A stretch of DNA of 29,209 nucleotides from positions 1-29,209 of the IMG/VR virus record IMGVR_UViG_3300017783_000139; one strand, 5' to 3'. Position numbers and translations under genes: made by a program. Below, piece by piece: positions 751-18,740 of the stretch. The notes beneath the pieces were generated by a model, which saw only the letters and a program-made list of their open reading frames with translations, did no database searches and was not told the DNA's origin. Within the stretch, counting starts at the first letter, position 1, and each line of letters starts with the position of its first letter. The DNA comes from a virus.

Positions 751-1203
751 ATGGATGACAACTTTAAATACGTATCTATTTTAGCACTAAACTTTTTTAC
801 CAAAATAGCTGCTTTAGTTATTTCTATATTTACCCCTATAAAAGCATTTGTATTTATAGTTTTTTTAATGGTTCTTATAGACACAGCTTTTGGTATATAC
901 AGTGTTCATAAAATAAAGGGGTGGGGTTATTTCACTTCAAACAAATTGTTCAATATTGTACCAAAACTGTTTTTCTATTTTGGCACAATATTATTATCTT
1001 ATCAAATTGACACCCATATTTTTGAGGGGTCTATTAACGACGTAAACATTATGGTGACGAAGGTTGTAACTTTCATATGGTTGACTATTGAAACTAAGTC
1101 TATAGACGAAACTTCGGTAAAGTTGGGAAATAAACCTATTTTAGATACGTTACAAGACACGATAAAAAGGTTTAGGTCAATAAAGAAAGATGTAAATTTA
1201 TAA
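751..1203 (+). CDS. Phage holin, toxin-secretion/phage-lysis holin type
   Basis: The 150-residue protein has hydrophobic segments at about residues 15-30, 32-50, 68-84 and 100-115. The layout matches the phage holin_4 family: an IDTAFGIYSVHKIKGWGYFTS stretch (family pattern LDxxtGixxAxxxkxxxSxk), then a KLFNIVPKLFFYFGTILLSYQID segment, then a last helix followed by ETKSIDETSVKLGNKPI, which corresponds to the E-x-x-S-x-x-E-N-x-x-x-x-G-x-P tail. Holins permeabilise the inner membrane at a programmed time so that the endolysin reaches peptidoglycan. It sits two genes upstream of an M15 endolysin, which supports the call. Confidence 0.72.
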   Translation: MDDNFKYVSILALNFFTKIAALVISIFTPIKAFVFIVFLMVLIDTAFGIYSVHKIKGWGYFTSNKLFNIVPKLFFYFGTILLSYQIDTHIFEGSINDVNIMVTKVVTFIWLTIETKSIDETSVKLGNKPILDTLQDTIKRFRSIKKDVNL

Positions 1204-1211
1204 AAAAAATT

Positions 1212-1577
1212 ATGTTTAGAAGAATTTTCACAAACATCTTTTCTACAATAAGTGGGAAAGATGTTATAAATAAGATGGATGAATGGAAACTTACATCGGA
1301 GGAGACAGTAAAATATCAGCTAGAATGGCTAAAATCTCTTCCTACAGGATTCCAAATTGCTCAAAGGTTTATTGGGGTAGGTTTTAGTATTGCTTTCCTT
1401 ATAATGGTTCTTACGGCTTATTTTATGGATTGCTTTGGTTTAGATATTACTAGCCAAAAGGAATTTATAGCTGAGACTATGGTAGACCCGATTAAAATTA
1501 TATTTTCACTTTATTTTGGTGGAGGTTTAATAAACAGTTTTAAGGGCATGATTAACAAGGATAAAAAGAAGGACTAA
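1212..1577 (+). CDS. Small membrane protein, possible second holin or antiholin
   Basis: This 121-residue protein has an amphipathic, charged N-terminal half (KMDEWKLTSEETVKYQLEWL) followed by two hydrophobic segments (about 54-72 and 93-110) and a very basic tail (KGMINKDKKKD). The layout resembles the 3TM phage holin families, where a soluble helix precedes two or three membrane helices. It lies between the holin and the endolysin, and its stop is directly followed by the endolysin ATG with no gap, so the two are almost certainly co-translated. It may be a second holin, an antiholin or another lysis accessory; I cannot separate these from sequence. Confidence 0.6.
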   Translation: MFRRIFTNIFSTISGKDVINKMDEWKLTSEETVKYQLEWLKSLPTGFQIAQRFIGVGFSIAFLIMVLTAYFMDCFGLDITSQKEFIAETMVDPIKIIFSLYFGGGLINSFKGMINKDKKKD

Positions 1578-2012
1578 ATGGGAGAATTTAAATTAAGTAG
1601 AAACTCTAAAAGAAACCTTAAAGGGGTTAGTAATTCCTTAAAGATACTTGTAGAAAGAGTTTTGGCAAAATCGCCTCATGACTTTGGGATACCTCAGTAT
1701 GGTGGTTTAAGGACAGCTCAGGAGCAAAACAATTTGTTTTGGAAAAGACCTAGCGTAACAACTTTGGATGGGTTTAATAAAAAATCATATCATCAAAGTG
1801 GTAAGGCAGTAGATATTTTTGTTTACGATGAGCATGGAGCTTGTTGGGAATGTAAAGAGAAATATAAAGAAATTTCGGAGATTTTTAAAAATGAATTTGA
1901 CTTAATGAAGGAAGAGGGACTTTTTTCAGAAAATGAATTTTTATATTGGGGTGGTGATTGGACTAGATTTAAAGATTTACCTCACTTTGAAATTAAGGAA
2001 AATAATGAATAA
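1578..2012 (+). CDS. M15 peptidase endolysin (L-Ala-D-Glu/VanY-like)
   Basis: The 144-residue protein matches the single-domain M15 endolysins typified by phage T5 L-alanyl-D-glutamate peptidase. The zinc ligands are visible as YHQSGKAVDIF (His72, Asp79, pattern HxxxxxxD) and DLPHFEI (His136); the aromatic YWGGDW and the YGGLRTAQEQ segment (Arg45) are also typical. It should cut the peptide cross-links of peptidoglycan. There is no signal peptide, so release needs the holin(s) encoded directly upstream. The ATG immediately follows the upstream stop. A strong hairpin terminator begins about 10 bases after the stop, closing the lysis operon. Confidence 0.9.
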   Translation: MGEFKLSRNSKRNLKGVSNSLKILVERVLAKSPHDFGIPQYGGLRTAQEQNNLFWKRPSVTTLDGFNKKSYHQSGKAVDIFVYDEHGACWECKEKYKEISEIFKNEFDLMKEEGLFSENEFLYWGGDWTRFKDLPHFEIKENNE

Positions 2013-2021
2013 AAAATAGTT

Positions 2022-2083
2022 AGAAAAGGGGGTATATTAAAATGCTTTTATATAATATAATATATAACCTTTTCTTTTTTTTT
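2022..2083 (+). terminator. Rho-independent terminator after the lysis genes
   Basis: An 8-bp stem (agaaaagg at 2022-2029 with ccttttct at 2068-2075) continues inward through tatat (2033-2037) and atata (2062-2066) and is followed by a nine-base T-rich run. It ends the lysis transcript before the divergent-looking but still + strand early operon. Confidence 0.7.
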
Positions 2084-2148
2084 CTATCATATATGTGGAG
2101 TAAAGGTAAAGTGCTGATAATCAGTAAATGTTAAAAATGAAAAATTTG

Positions 2149-2167
2149 GGTCTTTTTGACCTTTTTT
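2149..2167 (+). terminator. Short second terminator hairpin
   Basis: GGTC (2149-2152), five T, GACC (2158-2161), then six T. The 4-bp stem is weak alone, but it sits between the strong upstream terminator and the next promoter, so it may act as a back-up stop. Confidence 0.35.
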
Positions 2168-2249
2168 ATGTAAAAAATTTCAAAATGATTTTGTGGTTTA
2201 AAAAAAAGGTTTATCTTTGTAAAATATTAATGTAAAAAATTTCAAAATG
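2168..2249 (+). repeat. Two copies of a 20-bp direct repeat flanking a promoter
   Basis: The exact sequence atgtaaaaaatttcaaaatg occurs at 2168-2187 and again at 2230-2249. The second copy is the leader and start codon of the next gene; the first lies just upstream of its promoter. The repeat looks like a duplicated translation-start segment or a paired protein-binding site. The 62-bp offset places one copy on each side of the promoter. Confidence 0.7.
2191..2219 (+). promoter_or_regulatory. Bacteroidetes-type promoter for the HNH/exonuclease operon
   Basis: TTG at 2191-2193 and TATCTTTG at 2212-2219, 18 bases apart, match the Bacteroidetes TTG / TAnnTTTG promoter. Transcription would start shortly downstream, leaving a short A+T-rich leader before the ATG at 2247. 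Confidence 0.75.
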
Positions 2250-2453
2250 GAAAACATAACGAAACATCAAAAGCAGGTTTTAGAATTATATTTGAAAAAT
2301 GGAAAGTTGGATGATATTTTTAAATTGGAATTACTCCCAAACAGAAAATTGAGGATAGATAAGTTGGATGGTTTCATTTGGTTTGTTGGAATTTTAGGTG
2401 GAGTTAGAGTTCTTCATAAAAGTGAAACAAAAAATATAGAGGATGAGTTGTAA
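2247..2453 (+). CDS. Unrecognised small protein
   Basis: I do not recognise this 68-residue protein. It is charged, with a hydrophobic central stretch (FIWFVGILGGVRVL) flanked by lysines that is probably a buried strand-helix rather than a membrane segment. It is the first gene behind its promoter and its ATG falls at the end of the second copy of the 20-bp repeat. Its 3' end overlaps the HNH gene by 11 nt, so the two are translationally coupled. Confidence 0.6.
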   Translation: MENITKHQKQVLELYLKNGKLDDIFKLELLPNRKLRIDKLDGFIWFVGILGGVRVLHKSETKNIEDEL

Positions 2454-2928
2454 AAAATGTGGTTTAGAGAAAGAGTTGGTAAATAAACACTTCAAGCTTT
2501 GCCGAGAATGCAACAATGAGCGTCTGTATGGCAATAAGTTTGGAAAAAGGTATGATATGTCCACTTCGAAAAAAAAGCCTCTTAAAAGGACTAAAAATAA
2601 GTCAAGGACAAAAGAGAAGATATTAAAGGATGAAGAGTTCTACGAAAAGTGTTTTAATAACTCTAATCACAGGTGTGAGGAATGCAATAAGTCCTTACCT
2701 AAAAAATTTCGAAATGAAGATGGAAGGGTTTTGGCAAGATTCAGATACTCTCATATAGTTCCAAAGAGTGTGGCTCCAAAGTTAAGGCATAACATACTTA
2801 ATATAAACCATTTATGTTTAGAATGTCATCAAGAGTGGGAGAACGGAGCAAAGCATTTAATGAAAATATTTGCTAAAAATTATGAGCTATTTCCACAGTT
2901 TTTAATGCGTTGGAAATCAAAGCTTTAA
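2443..2928 (+). CDS. HNH endonuclease-like zinc protein (NinG/HNH type)
   Basis: The 161-residue protein has an N-terminal zinc finger (Cys3, Cys6, Cys20, Cys23), a lysine/arginine-rich linker (residues 43-60) and a C-terminal HNH-like core: HRCEEC (Cys78, Cys81), YSHIVPKSVAP (His104) and NHLCLECHQEW (Cys125, Cys128, His129). The order CxxC, SHIxPK, LCxxCH is that of HNH nucleases, and the two-zinc-finger layout recalls the NinG/Rap recombination protein family. It probably binds and nicks or resolves DNA. Its neighbours (a DnaQ-like exonuclease, then the replisome) fit recombination or packaging-related DNA cleavage. It could also be a free-standing homing endonuclease. Confidence 0.75.
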   Translation: MSCKKCGLEKELVNKHFKLCRECNNERLYGNKFGKRYDMSTSKKKPLKRTKNKSRTKEKILKDEEFYEKCFNNSNHRCEECNKSLPKKFRNEDGRVLARFRYSHIVPKSVAPKLRHNILNINHLCLECHQEWENGAKHLMKIFAKNYELFPQFLMRWKSKL

Positions 2929-3022
2929 GCTTTACTCCACACCTATGACAGAAATAGCGATTTTGAAAAGTTGCTAAAACAGAAAAGTAAAAAACAGTTA
3001 ACAGATTTAAAAAAGATAATAA

Positions 3023-3916
3023 ATGCAAACAAATTTAAAGAAGATTTTGGTCTATGACCTTGAAACAGGTGGTTTGGACTTCAAGCAAAATTCAATAACA
3101 GAATTTGCAGGTGTAGTTATAGACATGGAAACGTTGAAAATTGTAGACCAATTGTCAGTAATGTTTAAGCCTAGATTAGACTTAACATGGACAGAGGGAA
3201 AGTCTAGTTTACAAATAGCAAAGGTTCTGTATAAGAACTTAGCTAAGAAAGAGGAAGGTGATGACGTAAAGAGTTTGTCATATAAAGGTGAAAAGCTATC
3301 AATACACTCTATGGAAAAGTTAGCCTTAGAGATAGATGAAATTTTTGAGTGGGAGTTAGAATTTTCTAGAATTGTTACTGAGGAACAGTATTTAAGATTA
3401 TCTTCTGATAAAGATAATGATAACTATGATTTAATCGAGCTGTTTTTTAATAACACTTACAATCCACAGGCATTATCTGTAACTCACATGAGTAAGGAGC
3501 TTTTGATTGATGAAGGTGTTAATTATGATGAAGGATTTGAAAAAATATCAAACTTCTTCATGAAGTATAAGGAAGGTAACTCAAAACCAATATTGGCAGG
3601 TCATAATATAAAAAAGTTTGACAACGATTTTACTGAAAAACTTTTTGAATCAAATAGGTCTTCTTTGGATAAATTTATAAATCCGCTTATGATAGATACC
3701 CTCGAATGGGCTCGATTAAGGTGGTTTGATTCAAGCGGAGGTTTCAGTCTAGGTGTTTGTGCCAATAACGTGGGATTAACGCTTAAAGAGGCTCACAGAG
3801 CCTTACCTGACACCATTGCAAATGCAAAGTTTTTAATAAAAATGCTAGAGTCATTACGTGGAGAAGGTTCACAGGAAAGTAAGTATGTTAGAAAAAAATA
3901 TGATTTTAATTTCTAA
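3023..3916 (+). CDS. DEDDh 3'-5' exonuclease, DnaQ/epsilon-like
   Basis: All three exonuclease motifs are visible: YDLETGG (Asp12, Glu14), LAGHNIKKFDNDF (Asp200) and HRALPDT (His258, Asp263), which is the DEDDh form. It hydrolyses DNA 3' ends and is the probable proofreader for the phage DnaE, whose own PHP domain lacks metal ligands. At 297 residues it is longer than a typical epsilon exonuclease domain (about 180), because about 100 charged residues are inserted between motifs I and II (roughly 55-165). No beta-clamp or DnaE-binding tail is obvious. It starts at an ATG after a 94-nt gap in which I see no gene, and ends just before a new promoter. Confidence 0.88.
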   Translation: MQTNLKKILVYDLETGGLDFKQNSITEFAGVVIDMETLKIVDQLSVMFKPRLDLTWTEGKSSLQIAKVLYKNLAKKEEGDDVKSLSYKGEKLSIHSMEKLALEIDEIFEWELEFSRIVTEEQYLRLSSDKDNDNYDLIELFFNNTYNPQALSVTHMSKELLIDEGVNYDEGFEKISNFFMKYKEGNSKPILAGHNIKKFDNDFTEKLFESNRSSLDKFINPLMIDTLEWARLRWFDSSGGFSLGVCANNVGLTLKEAHRALPDTIANAKFLIKMLESLRGEGSQESKYVRKKYDFNF

Positions 3917-5144: not shown

Positions 5145-5255
5145 ATGAAGGTTGTTTTAATAAATTTACTTATATTTGCATTAGCGGTAGGGTTTAGTTT
5201 TTTACTAGAATATATTGTTTGCAAAATAGAGGATAAAATAGATAAGGATGATTAA
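5145..5255 (+). CDS. Tiny single-pass membrane protein
   Basis: A 36-codon gene too short for usual cut-offs. It encodes MKVVLINLLIFALAVGFSFL, then LEYIVCKIEDKIDKDD: one N-terminal membrane helix (about residues 3-25) and a charged cytoplasmic or periplasmic tail. Its ATG is 2 nt after the kinase stop and its stop overlaps the start of the polymerase gene by 8 nt, the same packing as its neighbours. That spacing, and the clear split into a hydrophobic segment and a charged tail, argue for a real gene. The function is unknown. Confidence 0.5.
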   Translation: MKVVLINLLIFALAVGFSFLLEYIVCKIEDKIDKDD

Positions 5256-6789
5256 AGAGGAAGCGTTAGAAAGGTATTGTAAAAAACAATTCTTAACATA
5301 CAGTTTAGGGGACGAGGTTCTTGAATTGGATGGTAAAAGTTATGTTGTGGTAGATAGTGACTTAATGGTTGTAGATGAGAATATGGAGGTTGCTATACCT
5401 TTAGAAGATGGTTATGATGGGTGGGTATTCGAATTCGGAGGAAGATGGTACATACAGCAATACGGAGAAGTTGATTTTCTTTTTAGAGAGCTTAAGTATA
5501 TTGGTGAGCCAAATGTTCAGGTTCCAACAAAGTCATTTTTAGGAATACGTTCAGGATATGAGCTTATGAATGGGATTGGTCTTTATAAAACTTGGGTTCA
5601 AAAAGCTAAATTTTTAGGAATCACTTCGTTAGGTATTTGTGAAAGAAACACTCTTTCAGGAGCTTTAGCATTCCAAAAAGAATGTTTGGCGAATGACATA
5701 AAACCTATTTTTGGAATAACTGTTCCTGTTGAGGGAAAGGATAATTTTGACATGAAGTTTTACGCAAAAGATTTTCAAGGGTGGCAAAACTTATTAAAGT
5801 TCAACACACAAATAAATGTTGATGGTAAAATGGCAATTAGTCAGAGTTATATAAAAGACAATCTTGAAGGATTGTTTTGCGTGGCAGACCCAAAATCTAT
5901 GAATTTTGAAGAGGTTCCTGATTTTGTTGACTATTACCAACTAGATACTCCAAACTATTTAAATACAGATACGGACTATGAGTATGTATTAAATTTTGAA
6001 AAGTTTTTAACGAGCGACTTGGAGCCAATAAATATTTCTGATGCATTTTATTTGGAGCAAGATGAATTTTTAGCAAGAGAATCTCTTTGGAAAATTGATA
6101 AGTCTTTTGATGACAAAACCAATAACCAATATTTTAAGAATAATCAGGAGAAAGCTATAGAGTTTTTACTTAGGTTTGAGAAAGGAAAAGATTATTGGAA
6201 AACAATTTTCAAAAAAGCTAATGCAAATGAGGAGTTTTTGGTAGAGAACTGTAATTTTACATACGATACAGACACAAGACATTTGCCGAAGTATAAAATG
6301 ACTGAAGATGAAAAGTCTAAATTTGACACAAATGAGGAGTTGTTTCTTTATTTGATAAAAAAGGGTTTTAAAGAAAAGAATTTTAAAGAACCTAAGAAAT
6401 ATATCGATAGGCTTAAAAAGGAAATTGAGGTATTGAAGATGGGTGATGTAATTGACTATTTCCTTGGGCTTTATGACATCATAAGGCATTCGAAAGAACA
6501 AGGCTTTTTAACAGGTATAGGAAGGGGTTCTGCAGGTGGTAGTTTAGTGGCATATCTTTTAGGTATTATACAAATCGACCCTTTAGAGTTCGACTTACTT
6601 TTTGAAAGGTTTTTGAACAGTGGACGTATGGGGGAGTGGGAAGATAGACCATTGTATTCTGTAGAAATGGATGATGGAAAAGTTGTAGATTTCGCAGAAG
6701 GTTCCTTAATACGTGTTTTGAGAAATAGCAAAGAAACGGTAGTCTTCATTCAGGATTTAGTTGAGGGTGATGAAATTTTAAGATATTAA
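5248..6789 (+). CDS. dnaE-N: DNA polymerase III alpha, N-terminal part (split DnaE)
   Basis: This 513-residue protein is the N-terminal half of a C-family replicative polymerase. Residues 1-95 are an extra strand-rich domain. From about 96 a PHP domain is recognisable (SFLGIRSGYELMNG ... NDIKPIFGI), but the usual HxH and TDH metal ligands are replaced (FLGIR, CERN), so it should be inactive as a nuclease. The palm begins with TGIGRGSAGGSLVAYLLGI (the GS motif, 426-432) and IDPLEFDLLFERFLNSGR. In normal DnaE the catalytic PDxDxDF follows within a few residues. Here a 53-residue Hint-like tail (461-513) follows and the gene ends in TAA. The rest of the polymerase is the next gene, in the same frame. 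The ATG overlaps the small membrane-protein gene by 8 nt. Confidence 0.9.
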   Translation: MIKEEALERYCKKQFLTYSLGDEVLELDGKSYVVVDSDLMVVDENMEVAIPLEDGYDGWVFEFGGRWYIQQYGEVDFLFRELKYIGEPNVQVPTKSFLGIRSGYELMNGIGLYKTWVQKAKFLGITSLGICERNTLSGALAFQKECLANDIKPIFGITVPVEGKDNFDMKFYAKDFQGWQNLLKFNTQINVDGKMAISQSYIKDNLEGLFCVADPKSMNFEEVPDFVDYYQLDTPNYLNTDTDYEYVLNFEKFLTSDLEPINISDAFYLEQDEFLARESLWKIDKSFDDKTNNQYFKNNQEKAIEFLLRFEKGKDYWKTIFKKANANEEFLVENCNFTYDTDTRHLPKYKMTEDEKSKFDTNEELFLYLIKKGFKEKNFKEPKKYIDRLKKEIEVLKMGDVIDYFLGLYDIIRHSKEQGFLTGIGRGSAGGSLVAYLLGIIQIDPLEFDLLFERFLNSGRMGEWEDRPLYSVEMDDGKVVDFAEGSLIRVLRNSKETVVFIQDLVEGDEILRY

Positions 6790-6867
6790 TTATAAAGCAC
6801 GCAGAATAATTTGAAAGTTAAAAAGATAACGATAGGTACGGCTAAGAAGTTGGTAGATGGTACATTG
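6652..6867 (+). other. Hint/intein-like insertion spanning the DnaE break
   Basis: The last 45 residues of the first polymerase gene (SVEMDDGKVVDF..., ending VFIQDLVEGDEIL) have the strand pattern and GDEIL end of intein block B. The first residues of the second gene (KVKKITIG) look like the strand that resumes after the endonuclease or split position. Block A (N-terminal Cys/Ser with its loop) and block G (HN before the C-extein) are missing, so protein splicing is not expected. The break between the genes falls where natural split inteins break. This is an interpretation from pattern, without an alignment. Confidence 0.45.
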
Positions 6868-8832
6868 CCTGATATCGACTCGGATTTTTCAGGAAAAGAT
6901 AGAGCTAGTATAAAGAAGTATATGGAACAGAGGTTTGGGGAAACTCAGGTCTGTTCTGTAGGAACATATTCAACCATGAAGCCAAAGGGACTTATAAAAG
7001 ACCTTGCTAGGGTAAATGGTGTAGATTTTTCTGAAGCCAATTTAATCACTAGTATGATTGATAAGGATGCAGTAACAATGTTTGACTTATTTAAGTGTGC
7101 CCAAAGTGAGCCAAAACTTAAATATTTCATCAAGAAAAATTCGGACATATTTCATATGCTGCCAACATTACTTGGGCAAAATAAGGCTAAGTCAATTCAC
7201 GCTTGTGCAATGATTGTTTTTCCCGAAGTTATGGGAGCTAATGAATTTGCACCAATGAGAACTCAGGATGGAATGTTAGTTTCAGAATGGGGTGGTGGAG
7301 AAATGGATGATGCAGGATTTTTAAAGGATGATATCTTAGCCATTAAGCAGTTGGAAAAATTTACAGAAATTTTAAAGCTGATAAAAAAGAATGGGAAAGA
7401 TGTTCCTGACATTTACAACTTACCATATGACAGTGAGGTGTATAGGTATTTCAGTAATGGTTGGAATGGAGATGTATTTCAAATGGGTTCAGAGGGACTT
7501 ACAGGGTATACAAAACAACTACAGCCACAGAATATTGGAGATTTGGTAGCAGCAGTGGCTTTATATAGACCTGCAGCTATGGAGAACCATTATCACGAAA
7601 TATATGTAAAGTGTAAGAATGAAGGTAGACAGCCTGAATATCTTTGGGGAACTGAGGAAATTGCAAAAGACACTTTCGGCTTATTGATTTATCAAGAGCA
7701 GGTTATGCAGGTTTTTCAGCAATTAGGTGGTTTGTCTATGAAGGAGGCAGATGATGTTCGTAGAGCTATGGGTAAGAAAAAGTTATCTGTATTACTACCT
7801 TGGAGAGATAGGGTTGAAAGTGGATATTTAGAAAGAGGAGCTACAAAACAACAGTTTCAAGAATCTTGGGATGCTATGATGGAGTTTGCTAAATATGGTT
7901 TTAACCTTTCGCATTCAGCTTGTTATGCTTTGACAGGATACATTTGCCAATACCTAAAAGTTAATTACCCAATTGAATATTGGACTGTTGCCTTAAGTAA
8001 GGGTAGTGAAGAGGATGTTTTAAGATATCTTTCAGAAATTCTTCAGGCAAAACAGATTACGATAAGTCCACCTGACATTAATAGTTCAGGAATACTTATG
8101 ACTGAAAACCAAGATAGAAAAACTATTTATTGGGGTATTGGTTCCATAAAAGGTATTGGAGAAGAAACTGCCGAACAGATAGTTCAGGAAAGACGTAAGA
8201 ATGGCGAATACAAGAGCTTTGCTGACTTCTTTTTCAGAACTGTATATAAGGGGTCAAAAGTTAAAAAAACGACTATAGAAGCTCTTATTGCGAGTGGTGC
8301 ATTTGATGAACTTTATGACTTAGAAGGTAGAGAGAAAAGAAGAATGTTATTAATCAAAAGGTACAGAAAGCTTAAGAAAGTAAAAGTAGCAAATCCACAA
8401 AGAGATGCTTACACAATTGGTTCTGTAAATGAGAATTGGTGGTGGAAAAAGCAGCAAAAAACTTTATCAGGTTTGGCTTTTATTGACTATAAAAAGATAG
8501 CGGAAGATGAAGGTTTTGAAACACCTTTTTGTACAGTTGATGAAATAAACAGACCTCAAAATAAAGAGATTTTCAGAACATTTGGAGGTCACGTTTTGGA
8601 AGTTAAAGTAGGTAAGACAAAAAGAGGTAAGTGGGCTAGGATAACCATTGACAACAACTATAAGATTTATTCTTTAATGTGTTGGTCAGATGAGTTTGCG
8701 GAGTTTGGTGAAAGGTTAGAGATGGCTGAAAAGAGTTTAATTATATTCACAGCCTCCATAAAGTACGAAGCTAAATGGGGAAGTCCAAATCAGCTTACAC
8801 TATTGGAAGATTCAGAAATTAAAATATTATAA
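6811..8832 (+). CDS. dnaE-C: DNA polymerase III alpha, catalytic part (split DnaE)
   Basis: This 673-residue protein holds the catalytic half of the polymerase. LPDIDSDF supplies the first two catalytic Asp (Asp21, Asp23, matching E. coli Asp401 and Asp403), and FLKDDILAIKQL supplies the third (Asp174). The fingers follow (VALYRPAAMENHY, IYQEQVMQVFQQLGGLSM, ADDVRRAMGKKK, FNLSHSACYALTGY), then a helix-hairpin-helix (IGSIKGIGEETAEQIV) and a C-terminal OB fold (about 575-670). The start is TTG at 6811, the only usable start after two in-frame TAA codons; it lies 21 nt after the first gene's stop and has no visible Shine-Dalgarno, so coupling to the upstream gene is likely. Both halves are needed for one active polymerase. 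Confidence 0.9.
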   Translation: MKVKKITIGTAKKLVDGTLPDIDSDFSGKDRASIKKYMEQRFGETQVCSVGTYSTMKPKGLIKDLARVNGVDFSEANLITSMIDKDAVTMFDLFKCAQSEPKLKYFIKKNSDIFHMLPTLLGQNKAKSIHACAMIVFPEVMGANEFAPMRTQDGMLVSEWGGGEMDDAGFLKDDILAIKQLEKFTEILKLIKKNGKDVPDIYNLPYDSEVYRYFSNGWNGDVFQMGSEGLTGYTKQLQPQNIGDLVAAVALYRPAAMENHYHEIYVKCKNEGRQPEYLWGTEEIAKDTFGLLIYQEQVMQVFQQLGGLSMKEADDVRRAMGKKKLSVLLPWRDRVESGYLERGATKQQFQESWDAMMEFAKYGFNLSHSACYALTGYICQYLKVNYPIEYWTVALSKGSEEDVLRYLSEILQAKQITISPPDINSSGILMTENQDRKTIYWGIGSIKGIGEETAEQIVQERRKNGEYKSFADFFFRTVYKGSKVKKTTIEALIASGAFDELYDLEGREKRRMLLIKRYRKLKKVKVANPQRDAYTIGSVNENWWWKKQQKTLSGLAFIDYKKIAEDEGFETPFCTVDEINRPQNKEIFRTFGGHVLEVKVGKTKRGKWARITIDNNYKIYSLMCWSDEFAEFGERLEMAEKSLIIFTASIKYEAKWGSPNQLTLLEDSEIKIL

Positions 8833-11431: not shown

Positions 11432-12400
11432 ATGGCGAAAAGTGGTAAAAATTCCAAGGCTATAATGAAAGCTATGGCAACTTTGGAAAAGAAGATTGGT
11501 GAAGGTACACTTATGAGGATGGGTGACTCCAACACTAGCATAACAACAATTTCTTCAGGTAGACCTGACTTAGACATCGCATTAGGTGGTGGGTATGGAG
11601 AAGGTAAGATTATAGAATTTATGTCAGAAGAGGCTTGTGGAAAAACAGGCTTGGCTTTAGAGGCTATAGCTGAAGTTCAAAGAAATGGTGGAGTAGCAGC
11701 GATTATTGATGCAGAGCACGCTCTTAATGAAGAGTACTGTGAGCTTGTTGGGGTTAAGGTTGAAGATTTGCTTTATTCTCAACCGAATTGTGGGGAGGAT
11801 GCTATTGAGACCATTAGGGAAATTATTGACACAGCAGAGGTTGACTTGATTATTGTAGATTCCATATCTTCATTAACACCAAGAGCTGAATTAGAAGGTG
11901 AAGCAGGAGAACAAAAGATGGGGCTCCATGCGAAACTTATGGGTCAGTTTATGAAAATGATTGTTGCACCTGCAGCAGAGGTTGGGTGTACTGTAATTTT
12001 AATAAATCAGCTTAGAGATAGTTTATCTATGTACGCACCTCCAAAGGTAACTACAGGAGGTAAGGCTATTAAATTCTTTGCATCTCAAAGGTTGGAAATA
12101 AAAAGAAAAGGTTGGATAAAAGAAGGTGAGGAAACAATAGGCTTTAAGCAACATATTAAAGTTATAAAAAACAAAGTAGGTGCACCTTTTAAACATACAA
12201 CCTCAGATATTATTTACGGAAAAGGTATTGACAAATTAACTAGCTTAATTGAAGGTGCTGTAAATGCAGGGGTGCTAATAAAGGCAGGTGCTTGGTATAA
12301 ATATGACGATACAAATATAGCTCAAGGTATAGCTAAGTTAAGAATTGTTTTAGAGGACAATCCTGACTTGGTGGATGAAATTGAAAAAAAATTAAAATAA
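11432..12400 (+). CDS. recA: RecA recombinase, bacterial type with altered P-loop
   Basis: The 322-residue protein follows bacterial RecA closely: IGEGTLMRMGD near the start, P-loop SEEACGKTGL (residues 65-74), IIDAEHALNEEY (catalytic Glu95), Walker B VDLIIVDSISSL (137-148), and the L2 region INQLRDSLSMYAPPKVTTGGKAIKFFAS. It promotes ATP-dependent strand exchange. Two things are unusual. The P-loop lacks the first glycine of GPESSGKT, with Ser in its place, and the segment before TTGG in L2 differs from the common GNPETTTGG. It is shorter than cellular RecA (about 350) because the C-terminal domain is trimmed. The ATG abuts the sbcD stop. A promoter starts two bases after its own stop. Confidence 0.92.
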   Translation: MAKSGKNSKAIMKAMATLEKKIGEGTLMRMGDSNTSITTISSGRPDLDIALGGGYGEGKIIEFMSEEACGKTGLALEAIAEVQRNGGVAAIIDAEHALNEEYCELVGVKVEDLLYSQPNCGEDAIETIREIIDTAEVDLIIVDSISSLTPRAELEGEAGEQKMGLHAKLMGQFMKMIVAPAAEVGCTVILINQLRDSLSMYAPPKVTTGGKAIKFFASQRLEIKRKGWIKEGEETIGFKQHIKVIKNKVGAPFKHTTSDIIYGKGIDKLTSLIEGAVNAGVLIKAGAWYKYDDTNIAQGIAKLRIVLEDNPDLVDEIEKKLK

Positions 12401-17063: not shown

Positions 17064-18740
17064 TTGAATAAATATTATATTGATAAGATAAATAAAACCG
17101 TTGTTCTCGATTTTGAGTTCAACGATTTAATAGTTTCTGACATTAAGGATTGTGGATATAAGGCTAGGTTTAACCCTGAGCTGAAACATTGGGTTGTTGG
17201 AGTTGATGAGTATACTATACCGAGAATACAACATGTTATCAAAAAATATGGTTTTAAGGATAGTAAGAGGAAAGAGGTTGAGTATGAAAGGTATGATTAC
17301 GGAATACCTCAAGATAAAATTGAAAGTTTAAGAAAAATTTGTGAAGAAAAAGACTTTGCATATACACCTAGAGAGTACCAATTAGAAGCTTTAGCATTCG
17401 CTTTAGAGAAAGGTAGTTTAATAAACGGAGATGACGTTGGGTGCGGAAAGACTTATGAGTCAATACTTTATGCTGAAGTCTCAGATTCTTTTCCATGTTT
17501 AATTATAACACCGAGCTCGGTAAAATATAATTGGAAAGAGAAATATGAGGAAATTTTAAAAGGAAGGAGAAGTGTATCAGTCATAGAGTCCAAGGAAACA
17601 AAGACTAGAAAAAACGATTGGACTTCAGATGTTGTTGTAATTAACTATGATATAGTTGGACAGAAAGGTGGAAAAATTAGGTTCAATGAACTTATTGATA
17701 TAGATTGGAAAATGACTATTGTTGATGAAGCACATATGCTTAAAAACAAAGATTCACAAAGGTCAAAAGCTATAAAGAAAGTTTTAAAAGATATTTCCAA
17801 AATACAGTTTTTGACAGGTACTGCGACAATGAATAAGCCTGTAGAATTATGGAACCTACTAAAATTGACTAGGTATGATGATAAGGTTGCAGGAGATTGG
17901 TATTCATTCATAAGAAGGTACTGCGGAGGATATAAGGGAAAATTTGGTTGGGTTACAGATGGAGCCACAAACATATTTGAGCTAAATAGACTTTTAAGAG
18001 AAACGTGCTATATGAGGAGAGAAAAGAGGGAGGTGTTAAAAGAAATGCCACCTGTAACAAAACAAGTTATTCACACCACATTTAGCAAGTCAAGAGAATA
18101 CAAGCACGCTGTAAATAATCTTATAGATTATATTCGAGAAACACAGGGTTCAGAAAAAGCCGAATCAGCAATGGAGGCTGAACATTTGGTTGCAATAACA
18201 CTTTTAAGAAAATTGAGTATTGAGGGAAAGATGAAATTCTTGACACAATATTTGAAAGATTGGAAAGAGTGCGGAGAAAAGTTGGTGGTATTTGGAGTTC
18301 ACAAAGAAGGTTTGGAGGAATTGTCAAAAACTTTCAAATGTCCACTTATTGCAGGAGGAGTTTCTTCAAAGAAAAAGCAAGAGATTGTTAACGAGTGGCA
18401 GAAGAGTGATGATGTTTTCTTATTTGCAAACATTGCATCAGGAGGTACAGGTATCGATGGTTTACAAAAAGTGTGTTCGAATATGCTTATAGTTGAATTG
18501 CCTTGGAGACCTTCAGATTTAGAGCAAGCTATTGGTAGATTGGATAGGTCAGGTCAAACTGTACCAACAACAATAACGTTCGCCTTATCTGAGGATACTA
18601 TAGATATGGATATGTGGGAAATGTTGGCATCTAAAGAGGCAGTTACGGAAGCTGTAAATAAAGGTATAGATGTAGCTAAAAACAAGTCAGGAATGAAGCA
18701 CGTTTTAAACAATATTATTAAAAAAGGAAAAATAAAATAG
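17064..18740 (+). CDS. SNF2-family DNA helicase/translocase (SMARCAL1-like layout)
   Basis: This 558-residue superfamily 2 ATPase has GDDVGCGKT (motif I, 122-130), IVDEAHMLKN (motif II, DEAH at 221-224), FLTGTATMN (motif III, 250-256) and a C-terminal helicase lobe ending with GGTGIDGLQKV, ELPWRPSDLEQAIGRLDRSGQT (motifs V-VI). Residues 1-65 (VVLDFEFNDLIVSDIKDCGY, then FNPELKHWVVG) resemble the small HARP-type module of annealing helicases, so remodelling of forks or recombination intermediates is likely. The start is TTG 17064; no in-frame ATG lies near, and the N-terminal module needs this start. It lies 12 nt after the SPFH stop. Confidence 0.88.
   Translation: MNKYYIDKINKTVVLDFEFNDLIVSDIKDCGYKARFNPELKHWVVGVDEYTIPRIQHVIKKYGFKDSKRKEVEYERYDYGIPQDKIESLRKICEEKDFAYTPREYQLEALAFALEKGSLINGDDVGCGKTYESILYAEVSDSFPCLIITPSSVKYNWKEKYEEILKGRRSVSVIESKETKTRKNDWTSDVVVINYDIVGQKGGKIRFNELIDIDWKMTIVDEAHMLKNKDSQRSKAIKKVLKDISKIQFLTGTATMNKPVELWNLLKLTRYDDKVAGDWYSFIRRYCGGYKGKFGWVTDGATNIFELNRLLRETCYMRREKREVLKEMPPVTKQVIHTTFSKSREYKHAVNNLIDYIRETQGSEKAESAMEAEHLVAITLLRKLSIEGKMKFLTQYLKDWKECGEKLVVFGVHKEGLEELSKTFKCPLIAGGVSSKKKQEIVNEWQKSDDVFLFANIASGGTGIDGLQKVCSNMLIVELPWRPSDLEQAIGRLDRSGQTVPTTITFALSEDTIDMDMWEMLASKEAVTEAVNKGIDVAKNKSGMKHVLNNIIKKGKIK

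Follow-up and report, generated by a model that had tools for sequence, protein, structure and literature searches.

A replicative DNA polymerase made as two proteins in a virus of Bacteroidota, with a probable dead split Hint domain at the cut

How does a replicative DNA polymerase reassemble when its gene is divided within the palm, next to the catalytic aspartates? This question is raised by a viral DNA of 29,209 nucleotides (IMG/VR record IMGVR_UViG_3300017783_000139, positions 1 to 29,209), hereafter the window, in which dnaE, encoding the DNA polymerase III alpha subunit, occupies two open reading frames (ORFs). The window virus is a virus of Bacteroidota bacteria. Sequence comparison established two genes, a conserved cut, homology of the tail of the first protein to Hint (hedgehog/intein) domains and the loss of the splicing residues. 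DnaE is very probably made as two proteins, in which a dead split Hint domain at the cut most likely serves as an assembly clip in the palm.

Both ORFs lie in the same frame (Table 1). The N-half matched Pfam PF02811, positions 6-98 of PF07733 and PHROG 13169 to its last positions, and the C-half matched positions 100-260 of PF07733, PF17657, PF14579 and PHROG 12219 from position 1. A single Pfam domain, DNA_pol3_alpha (PF07733), is divided between the two. Pfam, motif and model analysis together revealed all parts of a DnaE-type polymerase III alpha (PHP domain, palm with GS motif, catalytic aspartates, fingers and helix-hairpin-helix), and the pair of PHROG families, the break between the GS motif and PDxDxDF and the presence of a tail and a head are those of a split phage DnaE pair. 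An earlier reading of the letters alone (the sequence-only reading) had described two same-frame ORFs separated by TAA-TTA-TAA and a TTG start, with the GS motif in the first and all three catalytic aspartates in the second; the coordinates and motif positions agree with this, the third Asp region (FLKDDILAIKQLE) also lying in the C-half ORF. The stop codon of the N-half (TAA, 6787-6789) is followed by TTA TAA AGC ACG CAG AAT AAT and then by TTG at 6811, a start codon used by 5 of the 36 window genes. As had also been claimed, TAA is not recoded in the window, because it is the commonest stop of these genes (26 of 36) and TAG (6) and TGA (4) are used as well. The description of the two ORFs as the halves of DnaE held in that one domain is cut in two, but the cut is not clean: an insert formed by N-half residues ~463-513 and C-half residues 1-18 sits there.

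The same break was found in the Cellulophaga phages phiST, phi19:2 and phi13:1 and in Tenacibaculum phage Larrie (filed under Cbastvirus), each with two adjacent alpha-subunit genes, as well as in IMG/VR contigs. The pairs of phiST (gp044/gp045) and Larrie (ORF97/98) share the two genes, the break, the tail and the head with the window, and their proteins are 53-64% identical to those of the window; unlike in the window, their two genes occupy different frames. The N-half orthologue carries the annotation DNA polymerase III alpha subunit in phiST and Larrie, and the Larrie/Cbastvirus genes are annotated just as two alpha subunits or polymerase subunits (PMC10013915). No description of the Cbastvirus split or of a Hint insert was found in the open-access literature searched, subscription papers being mostly outside that search. 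The window TTG aligns with the ATG of relatives (MKVKKITIGTAKKLVDGTLPDIDSDF versus MKVVKIKETTAPKLVNGTLPDIDSDF), and 6.3% of the starts in the Larrie genome are TTG (PMC10013915). A tree built from 48 rows placed the window in a clade of ten split polymerases (support 100/100) whose nearest outgroups (L020, L036 and L019; L numbers denote relatives) are all unsplit and free of the insert. A further 14 split polymerases, Bacteroides phage BS-TP1 and contigs from the human gut among them, formed a second clade (100/100) elsewhere in the tree, and L026 represented a third split occurrence in a separate group. The deep branches between the split groups are resolved only in part, and L110, a different, long-branched case, was left out of account. 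The topology suggests that the palm site may have been broken at least twice, or broken once and then healed several times. The alignment with phage homologues proposed by the sequence-only reading accordingly places the break at the same position in all ten rows of the window clade and in a second, deeply separate clade.

A census of 168 dereplicated junctions comprised 89 unsplit without the insert (18-45 nt from FERFL to PDID), 6 unsplit with it and 73 split, with a gap below 420 nt in 26 and a longer one in 47; this cut-off is arbitrary. In the 47 loci (of 73 split) with gaps above it, another gene mostly lies inside; the gaps contained a Dda-like helicase (about twenty distinct loci), a methyltransferase, HNH or GIY-YIG genes or small unknown ORFs. 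The frame of the C half relative to the N half was distributed 26/21/26 over the 73 split loci, matching chance expectation. Since the frames are so distributed and genes often lie inside the gap, separate translation is the rule in this family, and the shared frame in the window, pointed out in the sequence-only reading, is a coincidence and carries no weight. Readthrough or recoding of the stop to give one full-length protein would fit the window, where the halves share a frame and just two TAA codons lie between them, but it is extremely improbable, as the halves of relatives lie in other frames or are separated by whole genes, the C half begins at a start codon of its own that matches the ATG of relatives in the alignment, and TAA is the usual stop of the window genome. 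Even less probable is a recent nonsense lesion or an assembly error, conceivable for a single metagenomic contig but opposed by the recurrence of this split in isolates from GenBank and in numerous independent contigs. Both alternatives, which the sequence-only reading had kept beside its preferred two polypeptides, were thus rejected for the family on the evidence of the relatives (shared split and frames). The preference for two polypeptides gained support from the recurrent break, the aligned start codons and purifying selection on both halves, reassembly being the inferred part. No Rfam match to a group I intron was found between the halves in the window or in six relatives, and a profile scan of genome contigs (alignment A1) yielded no confirmed match.

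The insert at the cut, comprising the last ~50 residues of the N-half and the first 18 of the C-half, is absent from most intact DnaEs. Unsplit DnaEs without it have 6-15 residues between FERFL and PDID; the split forms add an N-protein tail of ~50-95 residues and a C-protein head of ~15-40 residues. A profile built from 25 tails was compared with PDB sequences and placed three inteins on top: 2cw7 (PI-PkoII, 9.8e-5), 9hth (PolB split intein, 1.1e-4) and 5o9j (TFIIB intein, 2.7e-3). The N piece corresponds to blocks B and N4 of inteins but lacks the catalytic Thr/His, and Pfam Intein_splicing matched 8 of the 25 tails (best 1.1e-4); an NCBIfam search gave weak matches only. In an AlphaFold2 (AF2) model of the window chain read through the stop (predicted local distance difference test score, pLDDT, 89.8; predicted TM-score, pTM, 0.81), the whole chain matched bacterial polymerase III alpha (TM-score 0.81 against E. 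coli alpha, target-normalised), and the tail strands (463-513) and the head strand (to 536) were placed in one beta region. When the insert was modelled on its own, the first 43 Foldseek matches were all intein or hedgehog Hint domains (alignments of ~50-110 columns, TM-score up to 0.58). Because two methods agree, of which the sequence profile is independent of the tether in the model, the identification of a Hint fold is well supported by sequence profile and predicted fold, with modest but consistent E-values.

In its present form the insert cannot splice, as it lacks block A including residue 1, the Thr/His pair of block B and the C-terminal Asn. The window clade leaves no room for block A, with about 9 residues separating GRMG from the first strand, and the residue following GR is Met instead of a nucleophile. 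The T..H positions of block B are replaced, the four [TS]xxH matches being chance matches outside block B. None of the 82 unique heads has an Asn before C/S/T, and none has HN. A live split intein, by which the two proteins would trans-splice into one DnaE with removal of the Hint pieces, would account for the Hint homology in profile and Foldseek searches and is not without parallel, since split DnaE and PolB inteins exist, such as that of MIJ3 PolB with an HNH gene between the halves (PMC6892783). Moreover, a Cys stands at the would-be intein start, after (P)ER, in 12 of 78 unique tails. Against this, no head offers the terminal Asn, the window clade lacks block A and the block-B T..H, and three natural fused forms (L024, L029 and L170) keep the insert in one ORF without splicing residues; we consider this explanation very unlikely, and no live intein was found at this palm site among the 78 tails and 82 heads. 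In L170 (around 1270-1620), a gut-clade polymerase, the N half, Hint insert and C half form one ORF in which QLADVD replaces SLPDVD. Elsewhere in DnaE, L011 carries an apparently intact mini-intein (980-3478; CVSFRTL...VTCN, then SHA) at the FNK/SHA site, which we take to be the classical cyanobacterial DnaE intein position; the same polymerase has a broken palm site.

The favoured explanation is that a Hint-type, intein-like domain would once have inserted itself into the palm, with the GS-motif segment on one side and the catalytic-Asp segment on the other, the present cut lying in a loop of that domain. By prediction, the tail of the first protein pairs with the head of the second to give one small beta domain, which would form a permanent non-covalent clip joining the two half-palms. 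We infer that the halves bind through this clip and that the assembled enzyme polymerises. The fused forms with the insert in one ORF are as expected of a tolerated structural domain. Where synonymous sites are unsaturated, codon comparison indicates that tail and head are under purifying selection: in the gut-clade pair L056/L058, the ratio of nonsynonymous to synonymous substitution rates was 0.08 for the tail, 0.05 for the head and 0.016-0.028 for the bodies. There is precedent for such reassembly, as the halves of the split gene 43 of phage 25 co-purify and polymerise and the split NrdA of Aeh1 is active (PMC2988022).

Several points weigh against this explanation. The Intein_splicing matches fall under the Pfam gathering cut-off, and DrmE_C matches equally many tails (8 of 25). 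The Foldseek E-values of the insert-only model (pLDDT 71.5) are modest (best 5.7e-3). In the AF2 model of the whole polymerase, TAA was read as Gln to tether the halves, so that their pairing was modelled within a single chain. Pairs from the Cbastvirus clade are near synonymous saturation and give higher, unreliable estimates, and the tail evolves faster (ratio up to 0.5), under looser selection than the bodies. The insert could also be a Hint-fold element that never was a splicing intein. The strongest competitor is an ordinary two-piece polymerase in which tail and head form an unrelated, SH3-like or OB-like beta insert confined to the surface, while the rest of the palm assembles the halves. 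Small beta domains are easily confused, DrmE_C matched those 8 tails, the PDB list includes P-type ATPase and SH3-like proteins at lower ranks, and the large palm interface alone might be enough. This is nevertheless unlikely, given that the best profile matches and the first 43 fold matches are all Hint domains and that both pieces are kept in nearly every split form of both clades. As a separate observation, the window tail (6616-6786) weakly matches DrmE_C (Pfam PF24957, E 0.0063), the C-terminal domain of a DISARM defence protein; a related beta domain may be present in DrmE.

Fractured genes with split inteins and endonucleases were reportedly described by Dassa et al. in 2009. In a fractured gene such as that of phage MIJ3 PolB (PMC6892783), two Hint pieces likewise interrupt a replication gene at a conserved motif, and endonuclease genes can sit between the halves, as they do in relatives of the window; however, the MIJ3 intein keeps blocks A, B, F and G, whereas the window insert has no splicing residues. 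Two polypeptides also replace one replication enzyme in T4 39/60, Aeh1 nrdA and phage 25 gene 43A/43B, but these are a family B polymerase or other enzymes, and no retained Hint domain at the break is mentioned for them (PMC2988022). The group 2.2 jumbo phages have a minimal split polymerase III alpha encoded by distantly located genes beside a family B polymerase, with no Hint insert reported (PMC7824862), whereas the window encodes a full DnaE with PHP, fingers and helix-hairpin-helix in adjacent genes.

The gap of 21 nt in the window holds no gene. In L009, L026, L132, L150, L190 and others, an endonuclease gene does lie in the gap: the same palm site attracts HNH and GIY-YIG genes and is a mobile-gene hot spot. 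Eleven dereplicated relatives have a head that is in frame up to ...SLP or ALP and a body that continues from the catalytic Asp in another frame. Nine of these have an insertion of 7, 8 or 11 nt, starting in all nine with an in-frame stop, for example CCG TAGGGCCG GAT in L132, CCG TAAGGTCG GAT in L265 and CCG TAAGGCG GAT in L009. A 23-nt hairpin of 9-10 pairs ending at the first base of the Pro codon was present in 9/9 short cases and rare in 76 intact heads (rank test p=1.5e-7). Among eight distinct hairpins, 7 of 10 pairs had changes on both sides and 97.5% of cells were paired, well in excess of slid controls; these statistics are somewhat flattering, the hairpin having been found by seeking stems in these same sequences. 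HNH or GIY-YIG genes lay just upstream of 9 of the 11 out-of-frame loci versus 12 of the 76 intact ones (Fisher p=2.3e-5, uncorrected for relatedness). The L331 element was seen again in a separate contig (L338), and pattern scans of IMG/VR for the short element gave real copies in dnaE only, the remaining matches being chance-like. The window itself has no out-of-frame head, short insertion or bypass hairpin. In L192, L183 and L200, an HNH gene is present and the frame is intact, with altered residues before the Asp motif of the C head (RQLADVD, ASFPDVD and GSCGDVD, respectively), as if the endonuclease target had been changed.

Judged from their sequences, the short out-of-frame elements, most of which have homing endonuclease genes next to them, are candidates for a natural ribosomal stop-hop. 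Translation would break off at the Pro codon of PDxD and, with guidance from the 23-nt stem-loop immediately upstream, continue at the codon of the catalytic Asp, passing over the stop and a few bases (the 7-11-nt insertion); this would amount to a natural stop-hop family in an essential enzyme. In T4 gene 60, where a gene was divided by an endonuclease, ribosomes bypass 50 nt of inserted sequence that has a 5' stem-loop and a stop behind the take-off codon (PMC5009743). The elements of the relatives resemble it in the stop after the take-off codon, the 5' stem-loop and the endonuclease gene nearby; in contrast to gene 60, the gap is much smaller, the stem ends within the putative take-off codon and the landing codon is usually a partial match, being fully matched in L132 alone and replaced by another Pro codon in L325. 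A plain frameshift was rejected as a uniform cause, as the 7-nt and 8-nt insertions require different shifts. Re-initiation is possible: a GTG overlaps or follows the stop in 3 of the 9 loci (L189, L331 and L325), an upstream ATG might serve in L274, and a more distant start is conceivable in some others, but the other short-insertion loci have no adjacent start. The joint proposition, that a dead split intein is kept as a clip in a replicative polymerase and that the same palm site is a hot spot for endonucleases with a very short ribosomal bypass in relatives, is tentative and falls a little on the doubtful side.

Table 1. Location of the split dnaE features and neighbouring genes in the window, and of the out-of-frame elements in relatives
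Feature	Location	Strand	Remarks
dnaE N-half gene	5248..6789	+	PHP domain, N-terminal palm part, Hint-like C-terminal tail; 513 aa
GS motif RGSAGGS of palm	6523..6543	+	in N-half gene
N-terminal piece of split Hint-like domain (EWEDRPLYSVEMDDG...EGDEILRY)	6634..6786	+	profile, Pfam, AF2/Foldseek
Stop TAA (6787), second in-frame TAA (6793), remainder of 21-nt spacer	6787..6810	+	
dnaE C-half gene, TTG start	6811..8832	+	catalytic Asps, fingers, helix-hairpin-helix; 673 aa
C-terminal piece of split Hint-like domain (MKVKKITIGTAKKLVDGT)	6811..6864	+	predicted long strand joining the sheet; without terminal Asn
LPDIDSDF, first two catalytic aspartates of palm	6865..6888	+	in C-half gene
Exonuclease (RNase_T)	3023-3916		
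RecA	11432-12400		
SNF2-type helicase	17064-18740		
Out-of-frame dnaE C half, short insertion	L009 4527-4640; L132 3772-3880; L150 5931-6039; L190 7174-7281; L189 around 1615-1723; L265, L274, L325, L331		
Longer out-of-frame insertions (40 and 43 nt)	L011 940-1040; L026 10328-10420		internal hairpin, same codon; directly downstream of GIY-YIG genes

The exonuclease, RecA and the SNF2-type helicase are replication and repair genes neighbouring the split dnaE, and the exonuclease is a conceivable source of proofreading for the divided polymerase.

How split phage enzymes reassemble has been described as an open structural question (PMC2988022). Matching pieces of a non-splicing splicing fold on both ends provide a testable answer to it, and suggest that a selfish element has become a structural component of a replicative polymerase. 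They also make DnaE a source of natural split sites and interaction tags. If confirmed, the out-of-frame elements of the relatives would be short-distance bypass sites, long presumed to exist according to a review of recoding (PMC5009743).
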